64,000 bases of DNA from Cristatella mucedo (Eukaryota > Bryozoa > Phylactolaemata > Cristatellidae): assembly GCA_009760855.2 (NCBI GenBank), contig WPIO01000156.1, forward strand, positions 308,501 through 372,500. The letters are read 5' to 3'. Position numbers and translations under genes: made by a program. Positions 10,292 through 64,000 of this stretch are shown in pieces; within the stretch, counting starts at the first letter, position 1, and each line of letters opens with the position of its first letter. Under the pieces are notes generated by a model. The model had not been told where the DNA came from, did not search any database, and saw only the letters and a program-made list of their open reading frames with translations.

Positions 10292-29621
<19,330 letters not shown>

Positions 29622-44874: not shown

Positions 44875-47800
44875 CTATACCGGAAGGTAGTGGTAAGGCC
44901 ATTTGTGGTTGCTGCCCTCGGCAGCTGGTGGTCAGATAATGAAGCCCGTCTGGCAGACCTCGGCATTTTTTCGCAGCATAACGACCGCATTTCGGCTGCT
45001 TTGAGTCTCGGATGCCACCTCCAAGCCGTGTGGTCCCAGGATTCTTAGGTAGCACCCCCGACCCCGGCAGGGCAGGGTTCCACCAGTTAATGTTCACATT
45101 TTCAATAAATCATTCTTAAACACACAGATATATAGGAAACACTATAGAATATACTCGACTCGGCATTTAAGAATATCGGATATAGGATTACTCCACTTAT
45201 AAGAATAGCTGTTCTGCATCCCTGATTTATTCCAGCTATAGTCTCACTCCGCACATGGGAATGAATAATCCACCTATAAGAATGGCCATATGCTGGCCTG
45301 AGAGTATTCTTATAAGCTCTATAATACTTGTATCTACTGTATATACTGTATCTTATATCTACTGTATATTTATACACTGCCCTTCAAAAGTCTCTATGCG
45401 CCTCGTCCATCGATCAGAGTTCGGTTGTTACTAATGCTACAGTAATTGATTAAATTGCAGCAATCTGTCAATACAATTTTGGCCTCGTCGCAGTTTGCTA
45501 TGTTAGCCTTAGTGAGTAACTGCATTCGCACCTGCAACTGTCACTGTCAGTGGTTTGCATGTAAACAGAGGGGCATGTGTGGTTACGTGACTACAAACCA
45601 CCTCGGGGAATCCATCTGGCAGAACCTATTTTTGGCCCGTTTTGTCACGGACGATACCTTGGCCAATGATGAGCTTAGGTACCCGGATGGCCTCCAAGAA
45701 GTGAGGGAAGAATCACGTGACCACACAGGTTGCATCAGCACGTGACCTGTTGACCCTTGACCTCTTGGGGCCAGCTCCTGTATTGAAGCTCACTACACGA
45801 CCAGAACATGTTGTGCTGACAGTTGCACTGCTTTTTGAAGATACGAGAGCGTTTGGATGTTGCTTCACGGATATGGCCATTCAAATAAAGAAATCGGAAG
45901 GTGGCTGAAGATTTCAGAGAGCACTGTTAGGATCATTATTAGGAAACATCCGGTTTATGAGTGCACAGAGGCACTGCCTCATTCGGGTTACCCTTGAGTA
46001 ACGTCTCCGAGGGAGGACCGGCTCCTCAAAAGCATGGCTCCAAACAGGTTTGCCACTGCTAAAATGCACTGCCAAAGTCTCTGCCAAGCTACCGGAGCCG
46101 TCATAAGCCAAAATACCGTGAGTGGACTGTTTAATGAACAAGGACTGGCGATTTTGGCAGTAAAGGTTAGCCCACTGCAGGCTTCGTACCCACGACGTTG
46201 ATTATGAAAGCAAGTACCTTACCACCTGGGCTATCACGGCCCTGCTTTAGTCCTGGACAACTGCAAAGTGGTGGACTGATGAGTCCAAATTGGATCTCTT
46301 TGGCTTCGACAAAAGGATGGAGCACATTCGCCCGATACTGGGTAAAGCGTACATATATTGTTATCTTCAAAAGACCTCAAAATTTGTTCATGGAAGTGTA
46401 ATGGTATGGGGTTGCTTCTTAACTTCCGGTGTTGGGCATCTGTAGTAGATTCAAGGAACTGTTAATCAGAATGTCTATATTGACATTGTACAGAATGTTG
46501 GCATGCCATGTGCTTAGGCTCTTCACGAGTTGATTTCTGTTGGCAGTATGACAACTATCCGAAGCACACTGCTGTGGCAAACAGTTTTTTTTTTACGAAC
46601 CCCCTCCACTTCGGCATCGAGCCAATTGAGATCATGTAGTGGCCAAGACAAAGCTGCACTTGAACCCAATAGAGCATCTGTAGGACACAGTCTACCGTGG
46701 CCTAAGGTTCAGAGTTCTCCGGTGCATGAAACCCGATGAGTTGTTTGAGGTTTTGAAGGATTGCTGGGCGTCAATTCCTTCAGACACGTGCTGGTGAAGT
46801 CGATGCCGAGATGGTTGAGTGAAGTTATTAAAAATTACAGTGCCTCGGCAAGTTATTGATTGTACCCAATAAATTACATATAGTTATATATTTCTTAGCT
46901 TTTCTGCATAATAAAAAAGTGCTACACAGTTAGGTCCAATCTAAATTTTGTGTTTTGAGTAAAATAGTATGCTGGTAGCAGGGATGCAGAAACTTTTGGA
47001 GGGCAGTATACATGTTCTGCCGGGAGGTATTTCTGAAGGGCCTTCCTTGACTAACCCTGGATAGTGGTAGCCGTGCCAGGCTGTGCCATGGAGGTGGCTC
47101 CCACCTACTACCACGTCCCAACGTGCCGACCTCTGGCCACTTGCCGTGTCACTTTTGTGGGAAACCTTGTTAGCCAAGATCAGCCTCACTTTATATAGCA
47201 GCAGAAGAGCCTTTACGGGTATCACCGCCACTTTCGGGGGCCAATAAAGGATTGACCACAGCAGGACTCGAACTTTTGACCATGATAATAATAATAATAA
47301 TAATACACTTGATAAATCACCCTGTGGTGAAGAGCGAGCACCTTAGCTCTGGGCTAGGACCCAGGGGCTCAGATAACTTGGCCGGTCCGTATGTCTCCGG
47401 CCGGCTCTTTGCCTGCTGAGAGTCTCTCCACTCATTTCGAAACAGTAGGTGGTTCTCACCCGAGTCATCCTTCAGCTCTAACCCCACCCATCTCTGACCT
47501 ACCTGACTCTTCTCCTACCCTATCGCTCGATTTACCAAATCGCAATGTTGGTGCTTCAATGGGTCTTTTGGTGCAAAGCGGACATCCATTTCAGCCGCCC
47601 TGAGCTGCTTCTTCCTTGCTACTCACGTCTTCGACTGCCTTGCTGACTCAGCTATGATTATCAATTTTTCTTTGTTACAAGAGATGAAGTCTGTTGGCTG
47701 CCTCATGTGTACCGAAAGCCTTAGGCTTAGAGTGCACCGTAGAAAACTTTGCTTCGCCTAACACCCACTTAGTCTTTATGGTTTTGTGGAGTTACAGACC

Positions 47801-50208
47801 AAGATACATTACATTACCTTACAGGTTAATTTGATGTTTTTGTAGCTGCATGCATATCTGTTCGAGTGTTTCCGCATGAGCTCTTGCCTCCCTGAATGGG
47901 GTGCTTTGTGATGTTTTTTCGAACCGTGAGTCTACGACAGTGTCACGGTAGCCACAATTAAGCATCATTGAATGGAGCTCACATTACTGCTTTTTTGCAG
48001 GAGGCACTAATGCATCAGCGATCCAAGGAGTGCCTCACCGCTGTCCGGAGCGGTGCAGCTCTGCACGAACACACACTGTTGCCCGCCATGCAGCGCTGCA
48101 ATGCCGGCGCCGGCCGAGCTGGCCGCTGCAGCAGCCGCGTCGTTCCTCTGTCCAAGTACTGCCTTCGTCGTATCCTTTTGTGTATGGGCATATATCGGCT
48201 GCTAGCCGCCGGGCCAGGTGTCTAGCACCGTCGTGCCGTCATGCACTGATCTGCGAAGCCACGAGGCAGATCGTCACGTGACACGATCTAGACCGTCACG
48301 TAGCCCGATCTGGGCCGTTGGTGGGCCAAGAGGCAGCCGTCTCATATCCCCTTGGTTTTGGGGGCGCAGCAGTATGGCTGCTATGCGATTTCTCAGCATG
48401 CAGGCGCTGTGTGCATAGCATGGTCGCACAACGACTTGTCGTTGAGTTGTCCGGGTTTGAAGTGCTCGGCTACTGATTGTGTCTTTTGGTGCAGCGCGCC
48501 GAGTTCTCCTTGACTACGTGTCTCACAGACATCTTGAGCGATCCGCACCAAGTGCTGTTCAAGCAGTGCAGCTTCCTCGGTGGCCGTTGTGAGAGGCTCG
48601 TGCCCGCCGTCTTCAGCAGAGCTCCGCGGTGCGACTTGCACGAAGGGTTCAGCAGCAGCCGAGCGGCGGCCATCATCCAACGAGCCCAGCACCCGGTGGC
48701 CGCACCACTACCTCTGCTGCTGCCGGCGCAGCAGCAGCAGCATCGGGTGTCGCCCACTACTGGGGAAGTGGAAAATGGCGCAGCTGACACAGCTGATGCA
48801 GCTGATTCAGTGGCCGCAGCTCTGGTGAGCGCTTGCGAGTGAGCCATAGGCAGCCGACGCTCATTACCATTTTTGGGTCGGCTAGAAAAAGTCGGCTAGA
48901 TGTACAGATAGGTGCCCTGTAGGTGCCCTGCTCTCCGTTTGTCATCATGCTTTGCCAGCCAGGGCATCACACTCTCGTTCAATGGCCATGTCTTAGTCCG
49001 TTGTTGCGTCTCGTGTTGTGCACATGCCTGCCGCTTTCCTAAAGAATTACTTATACACTGGGAGGTTGTGCATCGACCGCCTGCTGGCCGGTGCTATGTC
49101 ATATAATGCTAATACTACTACTACTACTACTACTAATAAAAATACATTTCTATAGCACTCTCGTAGAACTCAATGTCTTTCTAGGCACTTTACATGAGTT
49201 GCAAAGGAACCATGGTCGAATGGTTAAAGGTAGCATGCCCGATTTCAACAAGCATAACATGGTTAGAGGTGACATGCACAGAGTCAGCATGCAAATATGG
49301 TTAGTAATAATTATAACAACAATACACTTATAAAGCGCCCTTAGAGAACTTAATCTCTTTCTAGGCGCTTTACATTCGCTGACAGCTTAAGGCAGCATTG
49401 ATGGAGATATTGTTGACTGATAAGCATGATGGTATGATGTCCATAATTATGTTGTTACTAGCTATTTCTATTGTCATTGGGACGAGCACGTAGCCACTCT
49501 TCGGTTCCGACAGACTAGCTTTTTGTCTTATCTCGATAGTAAGTCATGCATTGTTGATTTTGGATGTCAAGCTCGACGACGAATGCCACTGTTCTCTCAT
49601 GCTAACGAATATCAGTAGCTGTTAGCCGCCATGTCAATGTGCAACACACCGTACAATCAAGCCATGTAGGCTGCTTTGGTAAGGCGCTGCTGTGAAAGGG
49701 AAATAGCTAAGTTCTCTCCGGTGCAATGCGCACCCCCATCAGGCCGGCATGATGTGTTCCTGCCTTGGTTGAGCTGACACAGGATGCCTCTTTACTCATT
49801 GTGTACTTGTGACTAGTTGTTTCTGGTGGCAGGGTCGCATCCTAGCCGAATTGTCACCATCAACTATCGGTGTGGGTATTAAAGAGCAAAATGCATCCGT
49901 CACCGACATTTATGATGCTGTACTGGACCAGACTCCGGTCAGTGTAGGCGACCTGCATCTACAATCTATCACGGTAAAAGCTAAGGTGGTGCACCTACAT
50001 GCTGTGTGGCTGTGTAACAAATCGGTTAAAACTTTAGTTGCACGATGCATGCAACTGCTAGTGTCAACATTGAGTGGCCGGCCGATCTTACCTTGTTATG
50101 CTATCATCTTTTGTACGATTTGCATTTACCATATGTCTTGTCTTTTAGGTTAGTAGCACCATTGGCAGTCAGGCAGACCCACCAAATGATAATGATAACG
50201 AGCACTGA
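30022..50208 (+). CDS. KANSL2: KANSL2, NSL complex subunit 2 (nine coding exons, 526 aa as modelled)
   Basis: KANSL2 (Drosophila Dgt1/NSL2) belongs to the NSL complex, where KAT8/MOF acetylates histone H4 at active promoters. Exons: 30022-30230, 34755-35038, 38769-38886, 40482-40651, 42063-42196, 48001-48169, 48529-48824, 49833-49973 and 50149-50208. All splice sites are GT-AG and in frame. Two zf-C3Hc3H modules are seen. The first uses C14, C21, C32, H35, C47, C58, C72 and H75, with FCWRHILED between. The second uses C338, C348, C359, H362, C375, C382, C396 and H399. Between them are an acidic stretch (WRGEPNSDNDSGDSEADD) and the helix EKLIRLQSLYVDQF near residues 220-233, both diagnostic of KANSL2 rather than INO80D. 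Human KANSL2 is 492 aa. Exon 3's start is the weakest boundary. Confidence 0.93.
30340..30745 (-). mobile_element. LINE-A 3' fragment in KANSL2 intron 1
   Basis: Antisense copy with TCTCTTTCTAGGCACTTTAT, the CTGACAC/GTCAGC 3' UTR blocks, and the end of the RT frame near GGTCTCCAAAGGATTTGAGG. Confidence 0.8.
30795..31130 (+). mobile_element. LINE-B 3' end with (ATTAC)n tail
   Basis: Shares CGACATCTACT, GGCACATC, TGCTCTCCTGACTC and CACCCACATGGTCTTTATGA with the 23.7 kb copy. It ends in five to six ATTAC units. Confidence 0.78.
31158..31775 (+). mobile_element. Two LINE-A 3' ends in tandem, SINE-1 remnant between
   Basis: First 3' end at 31158-31412, SINE-1-like CTTTGATGACCAAGG remnant at about 31418-31482, then a second 3' end starting CATTTAAAAAGAACTTTAAA and ending (ATT)n at about 31775. 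Confidence 0.78.
31778..31893 (+). mobile_element. SINE-1
   Basis: TTTGATGACCGAGGTCGTGG, GCTCGAGCCC, then a decayed tail ending GGGGTTATACAAATCTATTG. Confidence 0.72.
31905..34300 (+). mobile_element. LINE-A, longest copy (RT domain and 3' end), decayed
   Basis: Contains the RT start (SPLDPIPTVLL, then FKKAIVRPLLKKETLDQENL at about 32245-32440), the DLSATFDTIDH-like palm near 32660-32690, and LGFHLCAGDS at about 33095-33122 where active elements have YADD. The C-terminal part and 3' UTR follow. The catalytic DD is lost, and stops and frameshifts are present. A LINE-A 3' end (about 32818-32995) and a reverse SINE-1 (34063-34205) are nested inside. Confidence 0.82.
34063..34205 (-). mobile_element. 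SINE-1 nested in LINE-A 3' UTR
   Basis: Antisense copy with GGGGCTCGAGCCCACGACCT and CACCTTAACCGCTATACCAA. It interrupts the LINE-A sequence ACCACTAA|CCATTCGATCG. Confidence 0.82.
34755..35038 (+). CDS. KANSL2: KANSL2 coding exon 2
   Basis: Acceptor cgtgcag|GCTTTG completes Gly70 and gives LCVEH, the last Cys/His pair of the first zinc module. An Ala/Thr-rich linker follows. The donor GCTGCTG|gtgagt is 30 bp before a LINE-A fragment. Confidence 0.85.
35068..35489 (+). mobile_element. LINE-A 3' fragment starting 30 bp after KANSL2 exon 2
   Basis: Well-preserved end of the RT frame (GGAATCCAACAGTCTACCAA) through TTATCAAGTGCATTATTATT. Same orientation as the gene. Confidence 0.88.
35495..36145 (+). 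mobile_element. LINE-B 3' fragment with internal minisatellite
   Basis: Matches the 23.5-23.9 kb copy. At about 35920-36075 a unit of roughly 18-22 bp, like ACTCTCCTGCTATATAAA, is repeated about eight times imperfectly. The element's own sequence GCTATACAAAACTCTCCTGC is the evident source. Confidence 0.75.
36285..36705 (+). mobile_element. LINE-A 3' fragment with inverted LINE-A nested
   Basis: Plus-strand LINE-A up to about 36368, a reverse LINE-A tail at about 36369-36565, then plus-strand 3' end to (ATT)n at about 36705. Confidence 0.72.
36800..36955 (-). mobile_element. SINE-2 (diverged)
   Basis: GCAGAAGAGCCTTAGAGGAC, then ACGACCTTGGTCATGAAG; reverse orientation. Confidence 0.6.
37740..38026 (+). 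repeat. Long polypyrimidine tract (CCCTYTCTCTCT)n
   Basis: About 290 bp almost purely C and T on the plus strand, with 10-12 bp sub-periodicity. Three overlapping open frames here are artefacts of composition. It could adopt triplex (H-DNA) structure; that is inference. Confidence 0.95.
38769..38886 (+). CDS. KANSL2: KANSL2 coding exon 3 (acidic segment)
   Basis: Donor TTCAA|gtgagc is firm. It encodes WTSAEDSCSEEP, AWRGEPNSDNDSGDSEADD and PFK, matching the human WRGDPDSEAD region. The acceptor at 38768 (gcacgcag) keeps frame but has a poor pyrimidine tract. In-frame acceptors further upstream (for example near 38647) would lengthen the exon. Confidence 0.75.
39286..39412 (-). mobile_element. 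SINE-1
   Basis: TTTGTATAGCACACCGAGAG, CAGGCACTTCACATATGCC and AGGGCTCGAACCGACGACC; reverse orientation in KANSL2 intron 3. Confidence 0.75.
39968..39998 (+). repeat. Short (AC)n microsatellite
   Basis: About 16 AC units. Confidence 0.9.
40482..40651 (+). CDS. KANSL2: KANSL2 coding exon 4
   Basis: Acceptor tgtatgcag|GTACGT, donor GCTCAAG|gtaact. It encodes FTEEEAVKITREKLIRLQSL and YVDQFKHLQQKL, the longest stretch of near identity to human KANSL2. Confidence 0.93.
40771..40836 (+). repeat. 33-bp tandem duplication
   Basis: Two adjacent copies of a unit beginning GTAGGTTGATCCTTCACCGC; they differ only at the last base. Confidence 0.93.
40840..42050. other. KANSL2 intron 4, no recognised feature
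   Basis: No mobile-element signature or second gene was recognised. Confidence 0.45.
42063..42196 (+). CDS. KANSL2: KANSL2 coding exon 5
   Basis: Strong acceptor (eight T then acag), donor GGCATC|gtgagc. It encodes NILARERNRAAVRYRKRTGI, corresponding to the human LLAKEREN...RRYRQRYGV helix. Confidence 0.88.
42690..42869 (-). mobile_element. SINE-2, full length
   Basis: Sense reading: GTGATGGCACACTAGGTAAG, GCGGTTGCCTTCACGACC, GGTTTGATTCCTGCGG, GCGATCCATTATCGCC, AGCCGTAAAGACTCTTCTGT, CGCTATACAAAAAGAGGCTG, then an A-rich tail. Confidence 0.85.
43290..43422 (+). mobile_element. SINE-1
   Basis: CTTTGATGACCGAGGTCGTG, then GTGAAGTGCCTGGATAGAGA and GGGTGCTGTACAGGTGAAAT. Confidence 0.75.
43418..44330 (-). 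mobile_element. TIR DNA transposon remnant, split by LINE-A
   Basis: Imperfect terminal inverted repeats: ATACCGTATTTTACCGTGT at 43418-43436 and the complement of ATATCGTATTTTACCATAT at 44329-44311. The minus strand between about 43970 and 44330 encodes what looks like a transposase C-terminus with a short acidic end (MEDEGDGVIDIDDCTDEDLE). The superfamily is not assignable from this piece. A LINE-A 3' end at 43505-43893 sits inside. Confidence 0.55.
43505..43893 (+). mobile_element. LINE-A 3' fragment nested in TIR element
   Basis: From AATCCTTTGGAGACCATGCC to the (ATT)n tail; same blocks as other LINE-A copies. Confidence 0.85.
44560..44760 (+). promoter_or_regulatory. Duplicated CCAAT-box segment, promoter-like
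   Basis: Two copies of GGAATGCTGCRCYYCGATTGG about 60 bp apart (near 44627 and 44671), each with an ATTGG (inverted CCAAT) core, followed by a TATA-like ACATATAGGAGCTGCG. It could be the regulatory part of an LTR or another mobile element; no matching second LTR was seen. Confidence 0.35.
44803..44873 (+). repeat. (AC)n microsatellite
   Basis: About 35 AC units. Confidence 0.96.
45375..47008 (+). mobile_element. Tc1-like DNA transposon, decayed (about 1.63 kb)
   Basis: Inverted ends CACTGCCCTTCAAAAGTCTC (from 45375) and the complement TACTGCCCTCCAAAAGTTTC (from 47008), each preceded by TA, the Tc1 target duplication. Transposase pieces in order: a helix-turn-helix-like ESTVRIIIRKHP region (about 45915), ALPHSGYP, WTDESKLDLFGFD (46271-46309, a catalytic Asp region), VHGSVMVWGCF (about 46388) and GTVNQNVYIDIVQN. 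Multiple stops and shifts, so it cannot move itself. A SINE-2 piece is nested at about 46166-46243. Confidence 0.88.
46166..46243 (-). mobile_element. SINE-2 head nested in Tc1
   Basis: Sense reading GGGCCGTGATAGCCCAGGTG, GTAAGGTACTTGCTTTCATA and a B-box-like GGGTACGAAGCC; tail absent. Confidence 0.72.
47180..47372 (-). mobile_element. SINE-2 split by a LINE-A tail
   Basis: SINE-2 body (GCAGAAGAGCCTTTACGGGT, ATAAAGGATTGACCACAGC) at 47180-47282, a short LINE-A (TAA)nTACACTTGATAAA piece, then the SINE-2 head (GAGCGAGCACCTTAGCTCTG). Confidence 0.68.
47385..47826 (+). mobile_element. LINE-B 3' end
   Basis: Shares CCTGAGCTGCTTCTTCCTTG, TGACTCAGCTATG, GAAGTCTGTTGGCTGCC and the ending AAGATACATTACATTACCTT with other LINE-B copies. 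Confidence 0.78.
48001..48169 (+). CDS. KANSL2: KANSL2 coding exon 6 (start of second C3Hc3H module)
   Basis: Acceptor ttttttgcag|GAGGCA, donor CTTCGTC|gtatcc. It encodes EALMHQRSKECLTAV (human EALLHRQLKERR) and Cys338, 348 and 359. The His362 codon is split across the intron. Confidence 0.87.
48529..48824 (+). CDS. KANSL2: KANSL2 coding exon 7 (end of second C3Hc3H module)
   Basis: Acceptor tctcacag|ACATCT completes His362 and gives ILSDPHQVLFKQC, aligned without gaps to human CLTHICQDTNQVLFKCC. It continues to Cys396 and His399, then an Ala/Gln-rich linker. Donor GCTCTG|gtgagc. Confidence 0.88.
49009..49071 (+). repeat. 63-bp perfect direct repeat, copy 1 (KANSL2 intron 7)
   Basis: Begins TCTCGTGTTGTGCACATGCC and ends GGGAGGTTGTGC; identical over 63 bp to 50456-50518. 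Flanks are unrelated. Confidence 0.95.
49110..49385 (-). mobile_element. Two adjacent LINE-A 3' tails in KANSL2 intron 7
   Basis: Reverse copies at about 49110-49300 (with a CTA/TAA repeat tail) and 49305-49385 (ACACTTATAAAGCGCCCTTA, TCTCTTTCTAGGCGCTTTAC). Confidence 0.8.
49833..49973 (+). CDS. KANSL2: KANSL2 coding exon 8
   Basis: Acceptor gtggcag|GGTCGC, donor ATCACG|gtaaaa; 47 codons in phase 0. The sequence (RILAELSP..., then VTDIYDAVLDQ) is only weakly like the human KEIAEDPVDILGQ region. Placement rests on frame, splice sites and position. Confidence 0.72.
50149..50208 (+). CDS. KANSL2: KANSL2 terminal coding exon 9
   Basis: Acceptor tgtcttttag|GTTAGT, then 19 codons and TGA at 50206-50208. 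The tail is short and acidic/Asn-rich (NDNDNEH). No canonical AATAAA was seen between the stop and the next LINE fragment at 50776. Confidence 0.68.
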   Translation, partial: VSSTIGSQADPPNDNDNEH

Positions 50209-50455
50209 CCGGTCGCCCTGACTCAAGATCAGTCATCATCGTCTATCGTATCAGGGGCTGCTGGAGCTTAAACTGCAGCCGTTGGCTAGCTGCGACTTCA
50301 CTCGCGAAAACTCGTATCTGCACATGAACTTGCACCCTGCCTGTTGCTCAGCAGCCATGTACCATCTAGGCAGTGGCTTGACAGCATGTTCAGTTTGTAT
50401 TTAAGTACTTTCATACTTGAATTGTGTAATGAACAAGTAAATGTTTTTCAAAAGT

Positions 50456-50518
50456 TCTCGTGTTGTGCACATGCCTGCCGCTTTCCTAAAGAATTACTTA
50501 TACACTGGGAGGTTGTGC
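50456..50518 (+). repeat. 63-bp perfect direct repeat, copy 2 (KANSL2 3' flank)
   Basis: Identical to 49009-49071, about 250 bp after the KANSL2 stop codon, so possibly in the 3' UTR. Confidence 0.95.
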
Positions 50519-50775
50519 TGAGCCCTGTACAACCTCGGAGCAGCTAGCTGCTGTAGTGAGAAGAATGGTTGTCTGTTGCTAGGCAACAAAGCCGTGGACT
50601 ACTCACCAACTGCATGTGTAGTTGATTTTCCGGGATCCCAGCTTGCTAGTGACTCGTTAAGGAGAATAGGTGCAATGGGATTCTGTTTTAGCATGTTTCT
50701 TATCGAAGTATGGTGCCTGGTCATTGGATCACAGGATTTTGTATGCTGGCTTAACAGTGTGCTCAACGATTTTAA

Positions 50776-51237
50776 TGATAATAATAATCATACATTTGAT
50801 ATAGCACCCTCAGATAACTCAATCTCTATCTAGGCACTCTGCATTTGCTGCAAAGGAAGCACGATCGAATGGTTAGTGGTTTCATGCTCGAAAAACAACA
50901 AGAATAACATGGTTAGGGGTGATATGCACATGATCGGCATACAAATTTGGTTAGTGGCAGCATGCAGTGTCAGCAGGCATAAGCACATAAAGGACGAATC
51001 ACAGGGACACACTAAATGCTGCGATAAATAGTTGCTTTTTAAGTTTCTTTTTAAATTAGATAAGTCAGGAGATGTGGCACAAGTCGGGGGTGAATTACAA
51101 ACTAAAGGCTCGGTCTCCAAAGAGTTGGAGATTTGTAAGAGGTATGGGTCAGCAGTTAGATTCGAAAAGCTGGTGGCACGATGCTTAGCCTGGTGGAGGA
51201 GTAGATCTGATAGGAAGGCTGGAGCCAAAGAATGAAG
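50776..51237 (-). mobile_element. LINE-A 3' fragment
   Basis: (TAA)n tail, GATATAGCACCCTCAGATAA, then antisense 3' UTR and the end of the RT frame (146-codon minus frame with LHSLAPAFLSDLL). Confidence 0.82.
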
Positions 51238-51244
51238 ACGTAAA

Positions 51245-52298
51245 AGCAACCCAGCCTTCGAGCACCTCAAATTCTCTCAACTCACTTGCTGCATGTATTG
51301 ATGACATCCGCACGTGGATGGCAGCAAATTTTCTAAAACTAAACGATGATAAAACTACATACTAGTTATGGCCAAACCCAGTGTGATTCACAAATTTGAA
51401 AGGCTGACGCTCAAAATTTGACTCGGCCAGCATATCTCCTGTCGAATCAGCTCGAAATCTAGGTGTCATATTCCAAAGCGACCTCTCGTTAGACGACCAT
51501 ATCAGCTCCACAGTCAAATCGGCCTATTTTCAGCTTCATAAAATTCGGGCTTGTTTAGATAAGGATACCACGTCTAAGTTGGTCCATGCATTCGTGACAT
51601 CTCGTCTCGACTTCTGCAACTCACTGCTTACTGGCCTACCAGCATGTGCGATCAGGCGATTGCAGCTGGTGCACACCTCTGCAGCTAGGCTTGTCTGTCG
51701 TGAGCGTCGCAGTTGCCACATTACACCACTTCTCGCCGACCTGCACTGGCTACCAGCAACGGATTGACGTCAAGGTTTTGTCGCTCACTTTTAGGTCACT
51801 TCATTCTTTGGCTCCAGCCTATCTCTCAAGATATACTACCCCATCAGGCCAAGCATCGTACCACCCGCTATTCGGAATCCAACAGTCTACAAATACCTCG
51901 TACAAACCTCAAATCCTTTGGAGACCATGCATTTAGTTCGTATGCTCCCAAAGCTTGGAACTCCCTCCCGAACTGCGTCAGAACATCCCCTGACCTGACC
52001 ACATTTAAAAAGAACTTATAAACACCTATTTAGGACAGCATTTAGTGGGTCCCTGTGATTCGTCCTTGATGTGCTTATGCGTGCTGACACTGCATGCTGC
52101 CACCAACCGCATTTGCATGCTGACCCTGTGCATGTCACCCTTAACCATGTTATTCATTTTGTTTGTTTATCAAGCACTACATTACTTACCATTCAATTGC
52201 ATTTCGCTTCGCAGCAAATGTAAAGTGCCTAGAGAGAGAGGGAGAGAGTTCTCTGAGGGCACTTTATCAAGTGCATTATTATTATTATTACTATATGT
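51245..52298 (+). mobile_element. LINE-A fragment: RT C-terminus and 3' end
   Basis: Starts in IDDIRTWMAANFLKLNDDK-like sequence. It continues with SRLDFCNSLLTGLPACAIR and LVCRERRSCHITPLLADLHW, then the full 3' UTR with (ATT)n. One of the better-preserved copies, still with frameshifts. Head-to-head with the fragment at 50776-51237. Confidence 0.87.
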
Positions 52299-52470
52299 GA
52301 GTGAAAAACCTTGGAAGTCGATATGTTGCTTGACTGGGAGCCAGTGGAGGTTGGCGAGAGGTGGTGTGATGTGGCAACTGCGACGCTCACGACAGATGCC
52401 TAGCCACTGAGGTTTGGACCAGCTGTAAGCGCCTGATTGCACAGGCCGGCAGGCATGCAGCGGTTCAGGC
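52299..52470 (-). mobile_element. LINE-A RT fragment, reverse
   Basis: GAGCCAGTGGAGGTTGGCGA, TGTGGCAACTGCGACGCTCA and GGCCGGCAGGCATG match the antisense of the ADLHWLPVKQ and GLPACA coding blocks. Confidence 0.8.
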
Positions 52471-53024
52471 ATGGCTTATGTTGGTTTGTTGTATTGTAAG
52501 GCCCTTTCAGTTGGGTGTTGTGAGATTGGTGAAGGTGACTTAAGAAACTATGGAGCCGGCTTGCAACCTCTTTTAAGTTGGGACTAGCTATGAACCGCTA
52601 TGCTAGTAGGTGGGGATGCAGGTATTAGTCTGGATTGTCGTCGGATTTTCGGTGGACCCGATCACGCCGAAATTCCGGTTCCTCTTCCAGGCCTGGTCGC
52701 TAAATGTGAGCCACATCTGTAGCTGTTGACACCATTCGTGTGAACGATTAGGCCACCTACGTTTTGACAGATAAGTCTGATGTTCCTACTGCTGTCGCTG
52801 ATGCGTCTATATACTGATGTTACTATATAGGAATTTCCAATTGGATTTGCTTTCCCTGCTATAATTATAGGCGTAATAAAAGGAACGTTAAATAAATGAA
52901 TCCGTAAGTAAAGGCTACTTCCGATGCAATGTCTGCGAACTGCAGTCTTAGATCCTTCATTTTTAGCTTCTATCAATGCATCTGTATGCTGATATTTTTT
53001 GAGCACTTCGCTCGAGTGTTTGCT
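52471..53024. other. No recognised feature
   Basis: No homology or repeat recognised. Confidence 0.4.
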
Positions 53025-53074
53025 CTTGCATCTATGCCGGGTCGCCATTCTTGCATCTATGCCGGGTCGCCATT
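53025..53074 (+). repeat. 25-bp tandem duplication
   Basis: CTTGCATCTATGCCGGGTCG plus CCATT, twice in direct succession and identical. Confidence 0.95.
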
Positions 53075-53985
53075 ATAGCCGATTCTGTGTCGTTGCTGGT
53101 ACCTTGCACCACAGTTTTTCGGTTTCATTAGAATCCTTGAAGGGACTCCTGACGATTTGGATCTGGTTGTGCTGCCTTGTTAAAAGACGAGCCACTCAAC
53201 CTTTGGGTTAAAGGTTGGGAGTTCGCTTCGACTAAGACACCGGTGACTGAGCACATATGAAATAACTCGCTTCTAATCGCAAGGAACGGCGGCTCAATTC
53301 TTCCAGGTTCCCAGTGGTCTTTTTTTCGGACTTCCTGGTACGGAATGCTAGGTTTTTCATTCATCGTGTAGCAGTGCACGTTTAGTGACAGTACTAAGTA
53401 AACAGAGGGTTGTGGTATCGGCAGAGTCGTGCGAACCCCAGTGTAAAGGGTACAAGCTTTCGAAGACAGTATTTACTGCCCACAAGAGTTTTGTAGCTTC
53501 GCCTAGTCGCGGAATTTTGGATCAACACGTCGCTCATGAGGAGAGGTGCAAAGGAGTTAGAAATATCAATGTTTACATTCCTCGCATTGACTAGCACCCA
53601 AATGTCAGTGGACAACAATCGTAGTGCAAAGCGCCCCTGACTCCTGTTTCCGTACCTGTTAGTCATTTTTACAAAACACGCCCGTATACGCTTATGTGCC
53701 AGTGTATATATATGTATATATATATATATATGTCTGCTTGCAAGTCAGGTACGAATATGTTTCAGGTGCTACTGAATTTAAAGGAAATCTGTTTCGCACA
53801 TTGTCTTCCACCGGGCACCTGCCACCTGCCCTAATGGGTAACTGGCAGGTGGCCATAGCTCCGGGGCCAAGTGCTTAGCTACTCACGAGTAGTCCGTCGC
53901 ATCAGCTTACCCCAGGGAACGTGGCCCTGTGGAAGCATGATAGCGTCTCTTCGGAGGCAAGGAGAGGGCTAAGTGGGAGGTCTGA
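53075..53985. other. No recognised gene; diverged SINE-like patch and short (TA)n
   Basis: A weak tRNA-SINE-like stretch at about 53190-53270 and a TA-rich run at 53704-53732. Otherwise unassigned. Confidence 0.4.
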
Positions 53986-54007
53986 GCAGGGCTGTGATAG
54001 CCTAGGA

Positions 54008-54194
54008 CAGTGGTTCTCAACCTTCCTAATGCCGTGACCTTGTAATACAGTTCCTTATGTCGTAGCAACCCCCGACCATAAAATTATTGTGTGCGAAGTG
54101 TGGAAATCCGTGTTTTCCTATAGTGTTAGGCGACCCCTGCAAAAGGGTCGTTCGACCCCCAAAGGGGTTGCGCCCCACAGGTTGAGAACCGCTG
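54008..54194 (-). mobile_element. SPIN-like (SPACE INVADERS) non-autonomous hAT element
   Basis: A 187-bp element with 16-bp terminal inverted repeats matching at 15 of 16 positions (CAGTGGTTCTCAACCT and the complement of its partner CAGCGGTTCTCAACCT). It is flanked by 8-bp duplications GCCTAGGA and GCCCAGGA (7 of 8). Internal blocks on the minus strand (AACCCCTTTGGGGGTCGAAC, GACCCTTTTGCAGGGGTCGC, GGAAAACACGGAT, AATTTTATGGTCGGGGGTT, GGAACTGTATTA, GGCATTAGGAAGGTTGAGAA) follow the SPIN_NA consensus as I remember it. It encodes nothing and depends on an autonomous hAT transposase. Confidence 0.88.
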
Positions 54195-54240
54195 GCCCAG
54201 GAGGTAAGGTGCTCGCTCTTCACGACCGAGATGGCGGGTT

Positions 54241-54340
54241 TATAATAATATTGCACTTGCACTTGATAAAGCGCCCTCAGAGAACTTAATCTCTTTCTAG
54301 GCGCTTTACATTTGCTGCAAAGTGATACGCAATAGAATAG
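54241..54340 (-). mobile_element. LINE-A 3' tail nested in SINE-2
   Basis: TATAATAATATTGCACTTGC, GATAAAGCGCCCTCAGAGAA and TCTCTTTCTAGGCGCTTTAC, then TTGCTGCAAAG. Confidence 0.85.
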
Positions 54341-54479
54341 AGTTTGAACGCTTCTGTTGGCGATCCTTTAATGCTCACCGCAAGCGGCAAGCGGTGGTTA
54401 TGATAGACATTAAGGCTCTTTGCCGCTACACAAACGAGGCTGTAAATCAGCCAATATATATTAGCATAAATAAATAAAT

Positions 54480-54625
54480 AAGTGTATATATATATATTTA
54501 TACATATACATTGACATACACATATACATATATGTATATATATTTGCAGTGTTTATATGGCTACACACACACACACACACTCACGTACGCACACACATAC
54601 ACACACACACATATATATATATATG
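54480..54625 (+). repeat. Compound (TA)n/(CA)n microsatellite
   Basis: Alternating TA, CATA and CA runs with interruptions. Confidence 0.88.
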
Positions 54626-54796
54626 TATACTTATGTACATGGCTAGAGAGTAACGTCCAAACTTACAAGCATATTTAAAGCCCATCTGACAATGCCATAA
54701 CTTTAGGGCTAAATGCATGTTTTCCCTCAGCTGCAGCTGGCTGTAAGTCCGGCCTAACAAACGGGGAGAGCACGACAGAGATATCGCTGATAGTAG

Positions 54797-54945
54797 AGTA
54801 TATAATGCATTTGTATAGCGCCGTAAAATAACTTGATCTCTATTCAGGCGCTTCCCATATGCCACGGGGCTCGAGCCAACGAACTCGGCCAGACTGTGGT
54901 CGGGGCGAGCACCTTAACCACTGGGCCAAACCAGCGCGGCGAGTA
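54797..54945 (-). mobile_element. SINE-1, full length
   Basis: Antisense: TTTGTATAGCGCCGTAAAAT, CAGGCGCTTCCCATATGCC, ACGGGGCTCGAGCC, CACCTTAACCACTGGGCCAA. Confidence 0.83.
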
Positions 54946-55449
54946 GTGCGAAGCACTGATAGTTACAGTGGCATAGGATGTCTGTTGTAAATTAAGGTGA
55001 GTAATGTTGGACGTTCACAGAGGTCCTGCCAGTCCCTGCTGTCCCAGATTTTCACGGCGGAGTTGTGTGTTTATATGCCTTGTGGCAGCGTTCATGTAGA
55101 TCAATGTTTGGCATTCAAAACAAACTCTCGACCTATATAGAATGTGCCCCAGCATGAAAACCTAACGATATTTCGCAGGTGATGGACTTTTGTGTGCAGG
55201 TTGCCTGAGGATTCTGTTAATTTCCCCCAGATTACGCCAATTTATCGGCAGATTGCGTCAGGCTCTACTCATAGTGTATAGTTTTTGATCAAACGTGGGT
55301 CTCTCGGTCACGTGTGAGTTTGTGTGCAAGGGCATGCTCCGAGGAGCATTCGAAATGTTAAGCGTAGGCTGGTGCAATCGCAACAAATTGCTATCGTATA
55401 GGTAGCGGTCGATTGGGAAGCCCCAGCTCTTGCAACAGAGCTTAACTGT

Positions 55450-55550
55450 AATCATAATAAATTTGCCTATAACTCTCAGAGAACATAATCTCTTTCTAGG
55501 CACTTTACATATGCTGCAAAGGAAGCATGGTTGAAGCATCAGTGGTAGTG
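55450..55550 (-). mobile_element. LINE-A 3' tail
   Basis: AACTCTCAGAGAACATAATC, TCTTTCTAGGCACTTTACAT and GCTGCAAAGGAAGCATGG. Confidence 0.8.
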
Positions 55551-55944
55551 TTGTGTGCGCCTGCGGCTTCTGCTGTTGTAATTAGCGAAGCGCCTGACAC
55601 TAATGTACATGCCTCACCTGTGGCCAATAATTAAGCCGTTGAAGCAGTGCAGCGTCCGGCCACAAATGCAGATTATATATTTCGTGTCGTCTGCTGCGAT
55701 TGATTGATGATCCCGTATATGTGCCCGTTGAGAGGAATGAAGTAGAGTCTCGTTTACTGCGCACGTGCGCTCGCTGTGTCTCCGTGAGACTCCCACAAGA
55801 ACAGACGCTGCCGGAGCCACTGTCATACAACAGTAGCGGTTAATGAGGTCGGAGGCTAAGAGCCCGTGCAGAGCGAACCCAGATGCTCCCGATCAGAAGT
55901 CGTGCAACGAACGGTGTTCATTAGCCAGTGGCCTGTCGGTCAGT

Positions 55945-56125
55945 TGGCTGTAGCAAGTGGCTCACTAGGTAAGACGGTTGCCTTTCACGACCTCCGCCCC
56001 GAGGTCGTGGGTTCGAATCCTGTGGTGGGCGATCCTTTATCGCCACTGCAAGCAGTGGTGATAGCCGTCAAGGCTCTTCTGTCGCTATACAAAAAGACGC
56101 TGTTAAATCAGCTAGTATTTGTTAT
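55945..56125 (+). mobile_element. SINE-2, full length
   Basis: GTGGCTCACTAGGTAAGACG head, perfect B box GGTTCGAATCC, GCGATCCTTTATCGCC, AAGCAGTGGTGATAGCCG, CTCTTCTGTCGCTATACAAA and CTGTTAAATCAGCTAGTATT. Best-preserved member in the window. Confidence 0.87.
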
Positions 56126-58187
56126 TTATTTAGCAAGTAATGCCGTAGCAGAAGCTGACTGTTTGGAGGACCGAAGTGGAGATCTGTGGAAACCTAGAAG
56201 AAGGCCAACCGTAGTTTTGCGAAGCAGGTGCCTGGAAATCAGTCAACATTGTCTAACAGCATATCCGTGGGAGCAAAAGTCACAGGGTCAGTTGAGCGAA
56301 TCACCTTGGCCTTCGCCACGGTGGTAAATCGTGAGCTCGCGCTGGCATCCCCATAGAGCAGCTAATAGTTTCCGCTTATACTAAACGCATCTGGAAGTAC
56401 TCCTCGCTATGAAAAGGAAAAATGCATTCAGTTGGATGTCTATTAAAACATCGTCGAACCGAAACTTGTAGAAGAGGCAGAATGATATCCTGACTTCGCC
56501 AGCATTGCCTAGGCTTTCCGGCAGATTGGTCATGCAGATGTAAAGGCTTTGTAGTAATTCCACCCTCTTCGAATAGTGCCCATTGCGTTCCCTCAGCGAC
56601 CGACTGGGCGTGGCTGGATGCTGCTGGTCGGTCGAACGAGTACACGTAGTTCACGAGTTAAAATTTCCGACACGGGCCGCCTGCGGGAAGTGTACCTGCA
56701 GGAAGATGCTGTCAGTTTTGATGGTGATCAATTCAAGCTGCTGGCGAACATCTAGAATAGATACTGTCACTTTTGTCACCTTAGGCTATGTTTCAATCTG
56801 ATAGCTCATTCACGACGCATTCGTGTCAATCTGACCATCTTCCCTACGGTGAAACGCTCCTGCTGATGAGGAGACGAGAGGGGCTTTCAATAGATTCTGG
56901 CGCATCTTGAAAGGAGCCAGTTAAGACCACGATAGACCAGTCAATAGACCAGTGAAGACAGCTTTCTCATGTTAGCAGTGAAAGAAATTATCCCCGAGAG
57001 AGATTACGGAAAATATAATTATTCGAGTACAGTTTCATACTCAGATTTATAACTTATTTTTTATTGTGTGTGCCGAGCTATTATTTGCTGGTTTTGCGGG
57101 TTTTCACGACCCTCGAAATGAGATGTGGGCGTGTTACTCCAATGCCACATTGTGTTGGGTTGAGTAGCGAAAGCCCGAACGACAAGGGAGACGACCGACT
57201 TTTTTTTGTAAGAAGACACCCCTTCCTTATGATGCATCGGTATGTGAGCTCTTAACTTCGCACTTTTAGCACGCTTTTAACGAAGTGCTTTTTTAAGGCT
57301 TTCGGTGGCCACACACATTAGCAAACTGTATTGGATGGAGACGGTGTAGGATTGTGGGCAGCGTATTAGCTTGACTGGAGGCTGCCGAAAGGACGGATAG
57401 AGGCGAGGTTGAATTCCCGAAAGACCAATCCTCCAATCAGGTTGAGTTTGCGGCGGGGACTCTTTCTTTATCCGTGGTCCTAGGGTATATCGCTTCGGCC
57501 GCGTACGTGATCAAATTACCCCCGGGGCGGGTTTCTGGATCGTCACTAGGGGCTGCATTTCAAATTGCATTAAGCAAGGCTAGCCGACCTGTTCAGACAG
57601 ACATCGGCGACCTCCGCTCGTTCGCTGCTTGCTTGGGGTGAGGGATGACTGAATCACAATATTTCCGTATCCGAAATGCAGAGGCCAGGCAATTCCTACA
57701 CTCAAGACACTAGCTGCCAGCCAACTGGAAAGTGCTCAATAATGGCTGCTCAATTACCCCGCATCCTAGTATTTACGAAGTTAAATGTCGATGGGCACGT
57801 CCAAGAAAAGCCACTGACGTTGTGCTCGTCGCCGGGACGAATCCAATGGGTGCGCAGGCAGCAGCCCGACGATTGTTGCAATGCGCGCCGCCGCCGCCGT
57901 GCGATCGCTAGCCCACTTGCCGAGTGCCAGCAGACAGCATGCTTCCAAGGTGGCCGGCCAGCTCTCCCAAACTTGCCTATCGCGAGTGCCGTCCAGCTGC
58001 AGTAGGCGACACTGCTGAGTCTGCACAGTTGGCCGAAGTCCGAAGCCTGCAAGTATCGCACTGCCTCGCTAACGAGATTAATCGGGCGTCGGACGGGCGA
58101 GAGCATCGTCGCGCCCAGGTGCCGACCGAATTTCGCCGCATTCCACCTCAAACCGCCGAAGTATACTCTAATTAAGCGAAACAGACT
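56126..58187. other. Unassigned; CpG-richer patch near 57.8-58.15 kb
   Basis: No mobile-element signature. The GC-rich patch at about 57830-58150 has open frames on both strands (109 codons plus, 133 minus) with no recognisable family. It could hold a first exon or promoter of a gene I cannot identify. Confidence 0.35.
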
Positions 58188-58435
58188 GGAAATCGCCGGC
58201 GAAAAGCTCGAATTTCAAATGATTATTGCAGTACGCGGCTCTTTATATAATGTACCCAGTAGATGCTATGCCATCGAGCTCGTCCTTTCTCATGCAAATG
58301 GGATGTCGAATGGGAAATCGCAGGCGCAAAGCTCGAATTTCGAATAAATATTGAAGTACACGGCTCTTATGATGCACCAAGCAGATTCTATGCAATCGCA
58401 CTCGCCCTTTCTCATGCACATGGGATGTACAGACT
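58188..58435 (+). repeat. 124-bp tandem duplication
   Basis: Two diverged copies (starting about 58188 and 58312) sharing GAAATCGC, AAAGCTCGAATTTC, CACGGCTCTTAT-like, GATTCTATGC-like and CCTTTCTCATGCA blocks. Confidence 0.85.
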
Positions 58436-58979
58436 CTGACCACTCAGACCGCAATCCACCGCAATTCACTGCAAATTCGCCAAAAATTGACTATTGGGGT
58501 ATAGGAGTTCGCGATTGGAATCCAGAGAGAAGGAACTTGCAATGATAACTTACCAAGCCATAGGCTACAGAGCTGGCTAAAAACGCAGTCAGTACAGTGC
58601 TGATATGACAACTGCTTGTATCTGATCGAGTAATGAACTGCAATACTTGAGTGGCAATCTCCGTGTGATTTATTTGGACTAAACGTACGTACACGGAGCA
58701 GCAGTGCTCGCACGACTAAAGCAGCAAGGGATTACTAAGCATAGCATCTACATGACTATAGGAAGGAGCTGAACGTCGGCGGATTATGCTTGAGCTCTCA
58801 GTAGCTCTCAGGTCGCGTCCAATTCTAGCTATAGTCACTCGGAAGAACAGGAAACGACTGACAGCTAATGTGAATGGAGCGTATTTCTTGACGAGGGAAC
58901 TGTCAAACACAAGAGATTAGACATGCTTGAGAGCTTATGTAATGTGTCTCCGCGTATAACTCCAAAAAAGCCACAAAGA

Positions 58980-59840
58980 CTATAATAATAATAATAATAA
59001 TAATGCACTTGATAAAGTGCCCTCAGATAACTCAATCTCTTTCTTGGCACTTTACATTTGCTGCAAAGGGAAACGCGATTAAACAGTGGGTAACATCATG
59101 CTTGATAAACAACATCAATAACATGGTTAGGCGTGACATGCACAGGGTCAGCATGCAAATGTGATTAGTGGCAGCATGCACAGTGTCAGCACGCACAAGC
59201 ACATGAAGGAGGAATCACAGGGATCCACTCAATGCTATCCTAAATAGCTATGTTTTTAAGTTCTTATAAATGTGATCAAGTCAGGACATGTTCTGACGCA
59301 ACTCGTTCTAGGCTTTGGGAGCATACGAACTAAATGCATGGTCTCCAAAGGATTGGAGGTTTGTACGAGGTATTGGTAAACTGTTGGATTCCGAAAAGCG
59401 GGTGGTACGATGCTTGGCCTGGCGGGGAGTAGATCTGAGAGATAGGCTGGAGCAAAATAATGAAGTGACCTAAAATTGAGTGATAAAACCTTAAAGTTGA
59501 TGCTTTGCTTGACTGAGAGCCAGTGCAGGTCGGCGAGAAGTGATGTGATGTGGCAACTGCGACGCTCACGACAGAAAAGCCTAGCTGCGGAGTTTTGCAC
59601 CAGCTGTAATCGCCTGATTGCACATGCCGGTAGGCCAGCAAGCAATGAGTTACAGAATTCAAGATGGGATGTCACAAATGCATGGACCAACTTGGACGCG
59701 GTATCCTTATCTAAACAAGCCCAAATTTGAGCAATTTTACGTAGCTGAAAGTAGGCAGACGTGATTGTGGAGCTGATGTGGTCGTCTAACGAGAGGTCAC
59801 TTTGGAACATGACACCTAGATTTCGAGCTGACTATTGGGT
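58980..59840 (-). mobile_element. LINE-A fragment with 184-codon RT C-terminal frame
   Basis: The minus frame 59810-59256 is uninterrupted and reads FQSDLSLDDHISSTITSAYF, LVHAFVTSHLEFCNSLLAGL, RRLQLVQNSAARLFCRERRS and LHYFAPAYLSDLL. This is the conserved C-terminal end of CR1/L2-type ORF2 proteins, downstream of the catalytic palm. The 3' UTR and (TAA)n tail extend to 58980. Confidence 0.88.
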
Positions 59841-59859
59841 GTTAAGCGGGAGAGATTTT

Positions 59860-59925
59860 TTCTAGCAAACTCACAGCCTAAGCGGCTTTCGGTACGCATT
59901 CGGAAGCCAACAGATTATCTAAGTT
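59860..59925 (-). mobile_element. LINE-B scrap
   Basis: AGCCTAAGCGGCTTTCGGTA is the antisense of the LINE-B 3' region (TACCGAAAGCCGCTAAGGCT at about 31000). Confidence 0.6.
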
Positions 59926-60029
59926 CTTGACGTTAGCACCAGTTATGGATCGCCGGGCGCGACTGCCCTTTGATGGATGCTGTCGCCGTCCTCAGCTGCC
60001 AGCGGTCAATTTTTACCTCCCGAAATCAG

Positions 60030-61035
60030 AGGCTTAGGCCCCCTACCTCAGTGTCAAAGTGCAGATGTAAATAGCTGTCGACAATTTAGGGAGCCCTTAC
60101 AGCACTGGGTACGTAAGGGTTCAGTCTTAAGCCCGCTTCTTTTTGCCGTCTAAATACTCTCTATCTGGCCGGTGTCGTAGCCAAACGCAATCTTGCCTTG
60201 CATTTCTACACTAATTACACCTAGCCCTACTCATCTTTTGACCATTCTAAGCCTTGCTCCTCATCTGACTAATTAGATTTCCTTATATCCTGCAACGACG
60301 ATGTTCATGCTTGGATAGCTGCCAAGTTCTTGATGCTTAACGAGAACAACCTGTTAGTCATAGGAAAATCTAGTGTCGCCCGAAAGCTGGAAGACCTCAC
60401 CCTCAAGATTGGTTCAACCAACATCGCTCAGCGGTGATGTCTGCCCCTTAATTAAGGCGTACTATTCCACAACGACATGTCAATTAATGAGCACATATTC
60501 TTCAGTGTCAAGTCGGCCAAATTTAATCTCAGTCACGATGAAACCGCACTCAGAATACCCCCCTAAATACAGCACATCACTGTTCTTATTTTTATAATAC
60601 ATTTTTAAGATCAGAGAGACCATCCGAAGTATACTATCCCTGCAGGACACCCCTATTTTTGCAGCTCCACTCCAAAAATCTTTTCCCTCCGCATCCGACG
60701 TCAACTTGAGGTTCACTTCCCAGTCTAAGAAGCCCACTAAGCAGTCACTGTGTACCTACCATCATCCTTTTTATTTGCCTTGATTTAGGTATTGCGACTC
60801 ACCATCACCTGCACAATAATTATATAGTTGCATGCTGCCACTAAGCACACTTGCATGCTGAACCTGTCCATGTCACACCCTAACCATGTTATTCTTGCTG
60901 TTTATCAAGCATGTTGTTACTAACCATTCGATTGTGCTTCCTTTACAGTAATTGTAAAGCGCCTAGAAAGAGATCGAGTTCTCAGAGAGTGCTTTATCAA
61001 CTGTATTATTAATAATACTATTATTATTATATCAA
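60030..61035 (+). mobile_element. LINE-A fragment, highly decayed
   Basis: RT palm-downstream remnants (GGGTTCAGTCTTAAGCCCGC for QGSVLSP; DVHAWIAAKFLMLNENN-like at about 60300) and a clear 3' end CATGCTGCCACTAAGCACAC to (ATT)n. Confidence 0.75.
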
Positions 61036-61500
61036 CAGACTCCGGTGTTGTCCATACATCTTTTTGAAAGACTTTTTAGGGCTTATCTTCAAAAAGTCAC
61101 GAACAGATCATGAAAACTTAACGAACTTATGCCCTGTTTATCGTCTGCGGTTCCTGTAAAAGTCGCTAGTACGACTAGTGAAAGACCAGCTACAATCTTA
61201 TACCAAATTTTCAAATTCGGCCAGCAAATTCCGGTCAGTATTTAGAGGCAACAATGCCGCAGATAGGCATAGCACTTAGGTGAGTTTATGACAACCACCT
61301 TATGCATGTTGGCTAATGTGGAGTTTCTCTGCTGGTTGATTTTGTTGAAAGAGATTCTCTATTAGTTCTGCTACGTCTCTTGGAAAGTTTTGATACTATT
61401 GATCACCTGATCCTTTTTGAGCACCTGTCAGGTCGGTATCACAAACATTGAACTGCAATGGGTTTAGTAATTTGCCATGCCTGACATCACCACCTCCTTG
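61036..61500 (+). mobile_element. LINE RT fragment, decayed
   Basis: Remnants of LVKDQLQSYTKFSNSASKFR-like sequence and SFDTIDHLILFEHLSGR near 61385-61435. Confidence 0.6.
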
Positions 61501-61612
61501 AATTAAAATGTCAAGCTTTGCTAAAAAACGCACTACTTCCTCACTGTACTGCTTTTACCCACATGAAGCCTTCCTTATGTGTTACTATGCGCTACAATCT
61601 TAATAGTTAGCA

Positions 61613-61745
61613 GAGCGGGTTTGGTCTAGCGGTTAAGCTGCTGACCAAGGTCTGACTGAGGTCGTGGGCTCGAGCCCCGAGGCATATGTGAAGCGCCTGA
61701 ATAGAGATTAAGTTCTCTTGGGGCGCTATATAAATGAATTATATA
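61613..61745 (+). mobile_element. SINE-1
   Basis: Nearly identical to the 26415 copy: GGTCTAGCGGTTAAG, GGTCTGACTGAGGTCGTGGG, CTCGAGCCCCGAGGCATATG, AGCGCCTGAATAGAGATTAA, TTGGGGCGCTATATAAATGA. Confidence 0.87.
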
Positions 61746-61954
61746 TTATATTTTTATATAATTTATCATGACTAACCACTTGATATGCTACCGTGGCAGC
61801 CTGCGTGGCGCGTGTAGAAAGAGATTCATTTCGCTTACGGTGCTTTTGGAATACTGTTTTACAATTGTTTTAATGGTATCCCGAGCCACACCAGGATCTT
61901 AAAATGCACTACAATTATCTGAACACACTATTAACACCTAATACTTTATTTGCA

Positions 61955-63430: not shown

Positions 63431-64000
63431 TTCTTATTGTCACTTAGTGTCAGCCTCGAGTATGGAGGCGTAGCGTCGCATTCTTTGCGCTTCATCGTCT
63501 AGGATCAAGAGGCGTAGTGCCGCATACTTTTCGCTCCATCGCCTGAGGGTCTGAGATGAAAATTCAGCTGCCTCACCCATGCGGCTGGAATCGCGAGAAA
63601 CAATAGCAACTCTCCAAGGATCGAATCGAGTGACGACGCCTCCTCCGGCGATGTAAGAACCTCCTTGACTTTAGCGACGGCTTCTTGTTGAGAATCTTCT
63701 CAGTCCCACTCATCATGTTCTACAAAAACTCTCTCCTTGGAGCTATCGACGATGCCACTGAAGGCATGAGTGGCGCCATCTTATTTAATTCCACGAAGCT
63801 CACTTTTGTTGGAGGATTCAGGAGGATGCAAGACAGCCGGAAATCTTTTTTTGAGCTTATCTGCGTAGACACCCGCCTGATTGATAAGATGGCCAAGACA
63901 ACGAATAAGCAAGAAGTTGGTAGATGCTGGCGCTTATTGACACGAAGAACTATTATTGCTCTAGGCGCCGAAGAGGTCGTTTGAGTGAGGCGTCGTGGGT
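63431..64000. other. Unassigned right edge
   Basis: A diverged repeat of about 50 bp (GGAGGCGTAGCGTCGCATTC and AGAGGCGTAGTGCCGCATAC, 63465-63550) is followed by a 99-codon plus frame (63685-63984) without recognisable domains. Confidence 0.35.

Follow-up and report, generated by a model that had tools for sequence, protein, structure and literature searches.

A probable SPIN hAT transposon copy nested in a SINE of an invertebrate genome, and its likely horizontal origin

The stretch of DNA analyzed here (64,000 nucleotides, hereafter the window) contains at positions 54008-54194 (+) a 187-bp sequence with the appearance of a non-autonomous hAT transposon. Does it belong to the SPIN family, and, if so, how did SPIN come to be in this genome? 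A previous sequence-only reading had proposed the family name and a possible horizontal transfer. Our analysis leads to a similar view: the element is very probably an inactive, internally deleted form of SPIN, a Buster-type hAT, and SPIN would have entered an invertebrate lineage horizontally.

The element, read in the direction CAGTGG...TTCCTAATG, starts with the terminal inverted repeat CAGTGGTTCTCAACCT (54008-54023, +) and finishes with CAGCGGTTCTCAACCT (54179-54194, -, read from 54194 to 54179 on the other strand). These 16-bp repeats are complementary at 15 positions. Both ends of the element are directly adjoined by 8-bp direct repeats matching at 7 of 8 positions: GCCTAGGA on the left (54000-54007, +), with a central TA, and GCCCAGGA on the right (54195-54202, +). 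The 187-bp element with inverted ends and the imperfect 8-bp duplication described previously are thus both borne out, the former with exact coordinates. They agree with the traits of the hAT superfamily given in a passage of PMC11008031, i.e., target-site duplications of 8 bp and short terminal inverted repeats of about 15 bp. We looked throughout the window for pairs of inverted 16-mers that agree at 15 or more positions, delimit 80-1000 bp, and have 8-bp direct repeats (7/8 or better) immediately outside them. This resulted in 42 pairs, including the element; the other 41 are AT repeats, 39 of them within an (AT)n run at 21.2 kb and two elsewhere. The same thresholds gave no match in 161 runs (12 + 149) on first-order Markov copies of the window. 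A search of the window did not find a second copy of the 187-bp element.

The ends of the element say less about its family. With up to 3 mismatches allowed, about one occurrence of its end motif is to be expected in a stretch as long as the window, and by itself the terminal motif of the element proves little about identity. The SPIN nucleotide reference that we used is a working sequence and not a database consensus; its check consists of a 36-residue stretch of a bat protein and of the finding of its own internal core in the genome. The window copy is identical to this working reference at 72 of 81 positions at the left end and at 80 of 90 at the right end, and has a short filler between the two SPIN ends instead of the internal core. 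One might thus suspect another hAT-Ac/Buster family, with only the terminal CAGTGGTTCTCAACCT motif in common with SPIN, since hAT ends are alike across families and the window copy alone is about 89% identical to the working SPIN reference at each end and lacks the core. We regard this explanation as very unlikely, given the protein match, the control family, and the genome-wide copies described below.

The off-frame, minus-strand translation of the end of the element matches A0A7J7Z4F3, an uncharacterised protein of Myotis myotis (E = 1.6e-7), which was the only candidate and the only match among 5.8 billion proteins. The second base of the terminal repeat is where the alignment begins. The working SPIN reference translates, letter for letter, to the last 36 residues of this protein and its stop, an agreement that checks the right-hand third of the reference. 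The consensus of 39 other copies from the genome (see below) is identical to the SPIN part of the protein, in this accidental frame, in the first 28 of the 36 residues, which speaks against another family; the remaining 8 fall past the start of the internal deletion. The window copy itself has 25 of the 36. Vespertilionid bats are among the SPIN carriers named in a passage of PMC5857283, and SPIN_NA_1_Et is named in Myotis lucifugus in a passage of PMC3183009.

SPIN was also searched in collections of contigs. Two patterns had no match in the viral collection, and there were nine matches in the genome collection, all bacterial, covering only 16-32 bases from the end and attributable to chance. 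As a control we used the hAT MER5A, likewise as a working sequence. Its best forward match comprises only 13 terminal bases with a score of 26 (29 in the reverse orientation), which again argues against a family that merely has SPIN-like ends. In the same comparison the working SPIN reference scores 135, and shuffles have a mean of 15.6 and a maximum of 26. The match to SPIN extends from one end to the other. Hence, the identity to SPIN is far better than to this one control family, a comparison that the sequence-only reading had proposed as a check.

The genome assembly has 572,011,866 bases in 688 contigs, where a first look gave 2154 SPIN candidates. Among these, 40 places were scored, all with at least 85% identity, one of them being the window copy. 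The consensus was built from the other 39 short copies, which are the best-scoring ones, so that mean divergences are biased low. Outside the internal gap, 181 positions of this 187-bp majority consensus align with the working SPIN reference, and 178 of them are identical. The 39 copies have a mean K2P distance to it of 6.1% (3.3-9.2%) in this low-biased sample. The window copy, at 10.4%, is more diverged than all of them. At the exact border of the element, 32 of the 39 have an 8-bp duplication matching at 6 or more positions, and 7 have none of this quality at the computed border. The dinucleotide TA occupies positions 4-5 of the left duplication in 31 of the 32, and of at least one side in all 32, for a background frequency of 7.7% in the flanks. 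Buster-type hATs have the target consensus nnnTAnnn, and the preference of the SPIN copies fits it.

The core of the working SPIN reference (159 bases) was also found in the genome, with a best E of 9.1e-49 and up to 94% identity. Since the window has no such core, chance is a most unlikely source of scores like these. We scored 40 of the 108 candidates of this search and read 22 of the 40 (4 loci and 18 regions): 17 have both ends uncut, 4 lack a recognised right end, and 1 is cut. The uncut copies are 280-360 bp long, except for one of 642 bp. The consensus of the 16 is identical to the working SPIN reference at 298 of 308 aligned positions, with 16 gap columns. Taken with the 178 of 181 positions of the short form, and with the internal core now included, this is hard to reconcile with another family, and the SPIN name previously given to the element holds. 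The long copies diverge from their own consensus by 10.6% on average (6.6-19.2%), and 9 of the 17 have a duplication of at least 6/8 at the computed border, the other 8 being below this. Relative to mammalian SPIN_NA, the 187-bp form has lost the core and has a short, different filler. We assign the window copy to SPIN because of its ends and of the longer forms in the same genome; by its sequence, it is an inactive internal deletion derivative. The divergence of the window copy and the ranges among the short and long copies indicate that the SPIN family in this genome is not very recent.

The element is inserted in a tRNA-like SINE. The start of the SINE head, with the box A region, lies to the left of the insertion (53994-54007, +, left limit approximate), and the head continues to its right (54195-54241, +). 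The same SINE then carries the 5'-truncated 3' end of a LINE (about 54242-54344, -, limits by eye), followed by the SINE body (54345-54480, +, right limit approximate). Hence, the locus was interrupted twice, by the SPIN copy and by a LINE 3' tail in minus orientation. When the flanks are joined, blastn reveals uninterrupted relatives of the SINE head at 62778-62815 (E = 1.0e-9), 46205-46246 (E = 4.4e-8), and 47324-47356 (E = 6.5e-6). With the first two of these relatives and the joined flanks combined into a profile, one more head is detected at 43303-43348 (E = 2.2e-6), along with others of weaker score. The sequence of the uninterrupted heads of the window is GATAGCCCAGGAGGTAAGG or nearly so, and removing the element together with one copy of the duplication restores GTGATAGCCTAGGAGGTAAGGTGCTCGCTCTTCAC. 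This site thus displays the target clearly, since uninterrupted copies of the same SINE are present within the window. The earlier description of an insertion into a SINE-2 is right in its main point, given the box-A-like head, found in several SINE copies of the window, and the uninterrupted copies; the label SINE-2 itself is backed by box A and the repeat copies, Rfam and ARAGORN having recognised no tRNA or other RNA at the insertion locus.

One of the 39 other copies (L035), elsewhere in the genome, is inserted at the same position of the SINE and has GCCTAGGA on both sides. For this reason, the original target was probably GCCTAGGA, the right copy in the window having mutated. The reverse case, with GCCCAGGA as the original, is allowed by copies of the SINE in the window with CCCAGG. 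The LINE 3' tail, with a stretch at 54239-54330 here, matches 30 other places of the window at E up to 1e-3. Elsewhere in the window, a LINE ORF at 59256-59831 has fishes and the coelacanth as named relatives among the 120 matches listed of 440; its two best matches are unnamed, and the best one (P0001) ends in a stretch that is also read from the LINE tail.

These observations are compatible with the following scenario, which draws on the general biology of hATs. A SPIN transposase, supplied in trans, would bind the terminal repeats, excise such elements, and reinsert them into target sites of 8 bp that have TA in the middle. Here, GCCTAGGA in box A of the older SINE was the probable target and would have been duplicated upon insertion. 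Mutations would then have accumulated in the element and in the duplication.

The source of such a transposase was sought among the hAT domains of the genome. PF05699 gave 138 matches (150 scored of 766 candidates), and none of the 30 loci read has an exact SPIN end. PF14291 gave 46 matches (150 scored of 237 candidates), and blastn found no SPIN ends in the 30 loci read. No Pfam hAT domain was found at E up to 0.05 in the six frames of positions 49001-64000, by a method that finds the sideroflexin of the window and misses its LINE pieces. Two autonomous-looking hAT families were considered as sources of SPIN and rejected, because their ends differ from those of SPIN in the loci read. The first is a very young, Hermes-related family (e.g., C62:104187-104423; L057-L086): 55 of the 138 PF05699 matches have the same score of 76.8 bits, the 30 loci are about 97-99% identical where aligned, and many ORFs of about 640 aa have no stops. 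Many of its copies are shortened at the 5' side. From its sequences, this family may still be active. The second is an autonomous-looking family with CAGGGGTGTCCAAC ends, of about 2.7 kb and with DUF4371 (L114, L116-L118, L120, and L121). Its copies are 91-97% identical, and 8-bp duplications with a central TA occur in all six copies read, a target preference that it has in common with SPIN.

Which organism carries these copies? In the mitochondrial contig (C688), COX1 is open under translation table 5 (invertebrate) and broken under table 2 (vertebrate), the two tables compared. It has 15 TGA codons and 11 AGA/AGG codons, and the latter fall at what we take to be conserved serines. A nuclear insert of mitochondrial DNA in contig C166 (L088, C166:4375626-4376390 and flanks) includes 2268 bases at 97.1% and 1505 bases at 96.0% identity. 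The mitochondrial DNA thus belongs to the same genome as the SPIN copies, one of which (L022) is on C166. Given the genetic code of COX1 and this insert, the host of SPIN is not a vertebrate. A lamprey had been a candidate: the GC content of the window (about 47%) and the GC3 of its sideroflexin fit the lamprey pattern described in a passage of PMC3141671, and the named relatives of the LINE among the matches listed are fishes and the coelacanth. It was rejected on account of the COX1 reading frame, which the vertebrate code interrupts and table 5 leaves open, of the AGA/AGG codons at presumed serines, and of the nuclear insert.

The same evidence bears on contamination of the assembly by vertebrate DNA. 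This is scarcely conceivable, and we found nothing in its favor. Numerous long contigs, the largest of 24.8 Mb, contain SPIN copies, and the insert of the host's mitochondrial DNA lies on one of them. Furthermore, two copies are nested in a SINE that belongs to the host itself, and such nested repeats refute a contamination.

The gene order of the mitochondrial contig (21,008 bases; L122, L123) was established by eye for 18.5 of 21.0 kb, on the basis of ORFs without annotation and of tRNAs predicted by ARAGORN, including weak and overlapping ones. This order is not known from pulmonate snails. The block nad1-P(-)-nad6-cob-S2-T(-)-nad4L-nad4-H-nad5 agrees with the part of the table for the ribbon worm Lineus viridis given in PMC2728741, and the host is therefore likely a lophotrochozoan. 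This agreement is not specific to ribbon worms, because the same source, in the passage concerned, describes the order of protein genes in Lineus as common to a brachiopod and some gastropods. Differences from Lineus are also apparent. The latter has trnY before P (PMC2728741, same table), whereas trnY was not found there in our reading of C688, and outside the block the molecule is rearranged, with several tRNAs on the other strand and a different base skew. The contig also has a repeated unit of about 2.1 kb, a partial second nad3, and an unusual gene order. The mollusc haemocyanin family PF14830 had no matches in the genome, a result without weight for or against a mollusc host, as the control had none either.

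Other features of the window are given here for completeness. GC3 is 0.84 and 0.88 in the two sideroflexin exons (4038-4166, -, and 4470-4625, -) and 0.47-0.66 in four further stretches of lower certainty. An exon encoding a cyclin-T C-terminal domain (PF21797) lies at about 19802-19906 (-). The long ORF at 10292-12265 had no match when searched against proteins; our guess is that it is part of the cyclin gene, and, as another guess, KANSL2 may lie near 40.5 kb. The remains of a Tc1-like transposase, interrupted by stops and frameshifts, span about 45760-46900 (+) and have a SINE head inside (46186-46237). The helix-turn-helix of the Sleeping Beauty type in this relic (about 45863-45967) scores 21.3 bits, under the cut-off of 43.

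How, then, did a non-vertebrate come to carry SPIN? The consensus sequences are about 97-98% identical to the working reference of mammalian SPIN at aligned positions. This identity and, independently of that reference, the 28 residues in common with the bat protein are incompatible with the descent of non-coding DNA from a common ancestor. Vertical inheritance since the ancestor of vertebrates and this invertebrate is thus highly improbable: non-coding DNA would be saturated over such a time, yet the consensus identity is this high, and the short copies in the sample diverge from the consensus that they form by a mean of about 6%, a low-biased value that is too little for descent since the split between bats and this invertebrate. 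On these sequences, horizontal transfer is the best explanation of the likeness between bat and invertebrate non-coding DNA, and the entry of SPIN into the invertebrate lineage was presumably such an event. The transfer previously suggested is supported by the identity to mammalian SPIN in a host that is not a vertebrate. The divergence of the sampled copies, proposed previously as a check on their age, also agrees with it, within the low bias of this sample.

As to the direction of transfer, SPIN may have passed to vertebrates from invertebrates, whether parasites themselves or the hosts of parasites, or from a third source to both, a serious possibility to which we give somewhat less than even chances. 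In the snail Biomphalaria glabrata, a passage of PMC5440852 describes about 1,000 copies of a SPIN-like hAT. We found nothing specific against such a route; the transfers to mammals are dated to 15-46 Myr ago in a passage of PMC5857283.

The presence of SPIN in invertebrates is already known. What is new is the host, without any claim that it is unreported. Tentatively, and with slightly worse than even odds in our judgment, SPIN may have invaded a lophotrochozoan lineage where it was unreported, perhaps outside molluscs in view of the mitochondrial block that agrees with Lineus viridis, and been amplified there to a large copy number as long and 187-bp forms. If so, the reach of SPIN, one of the familiar examples of DNA transposons that have moved between phyla, would extend to another invertebrate phylum. 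To our knowledge, few invertebrate carriers of SPIN are known. An invertebrate host with a high copy number and with both long and deleted forms offers countable material to ask when SPIN arrived, from whom, and how often.

Known carriers of SPIN include a frog and the pond snail Lymnaea stagnalis. The hosts of SPIN_NA (SPACE INVADERS) listed in a passage of PMC5857283 are vespertilionid bats, tenrec, galago, murine rodents, and opossum, and squamates are added in a passage of PMC11008031. The vertebrate SPIN_NA has the same ends, subterminal GACCCC/GGGGTC blocks, and, according to the working reference, core as the copies described here. The 8-bp duplications with TA are also the same, the TA being a Buster trait; besides the deleted core of the 187-bp form, the difference is that the present host is an invertebrate. 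In Rhodnius prolixus, fewer than 5 SPIN copies are given in a passage of PMC11614815, a figure that concerns piRNA clusters only, whereas the 2154 first-look candidates here are genome-wide. Rhodnius and Lymnaea are like the present case in that SPIN occurs in an invertebrate and is taken as horizontally transferred. The likeness to Biomphalaria, by description and not by sequence, is that a lophotrochozoan has many copies; no intact transposases are reported from its assembly in the passage of PMC5440852. Finally, the MER5A/Charlie-type hAT MITEs have in common with our element the first 13 bases of the end and the 8-bp duplication, but the forward comparison with the working MER5A sequence aligns nothing beyond this end.
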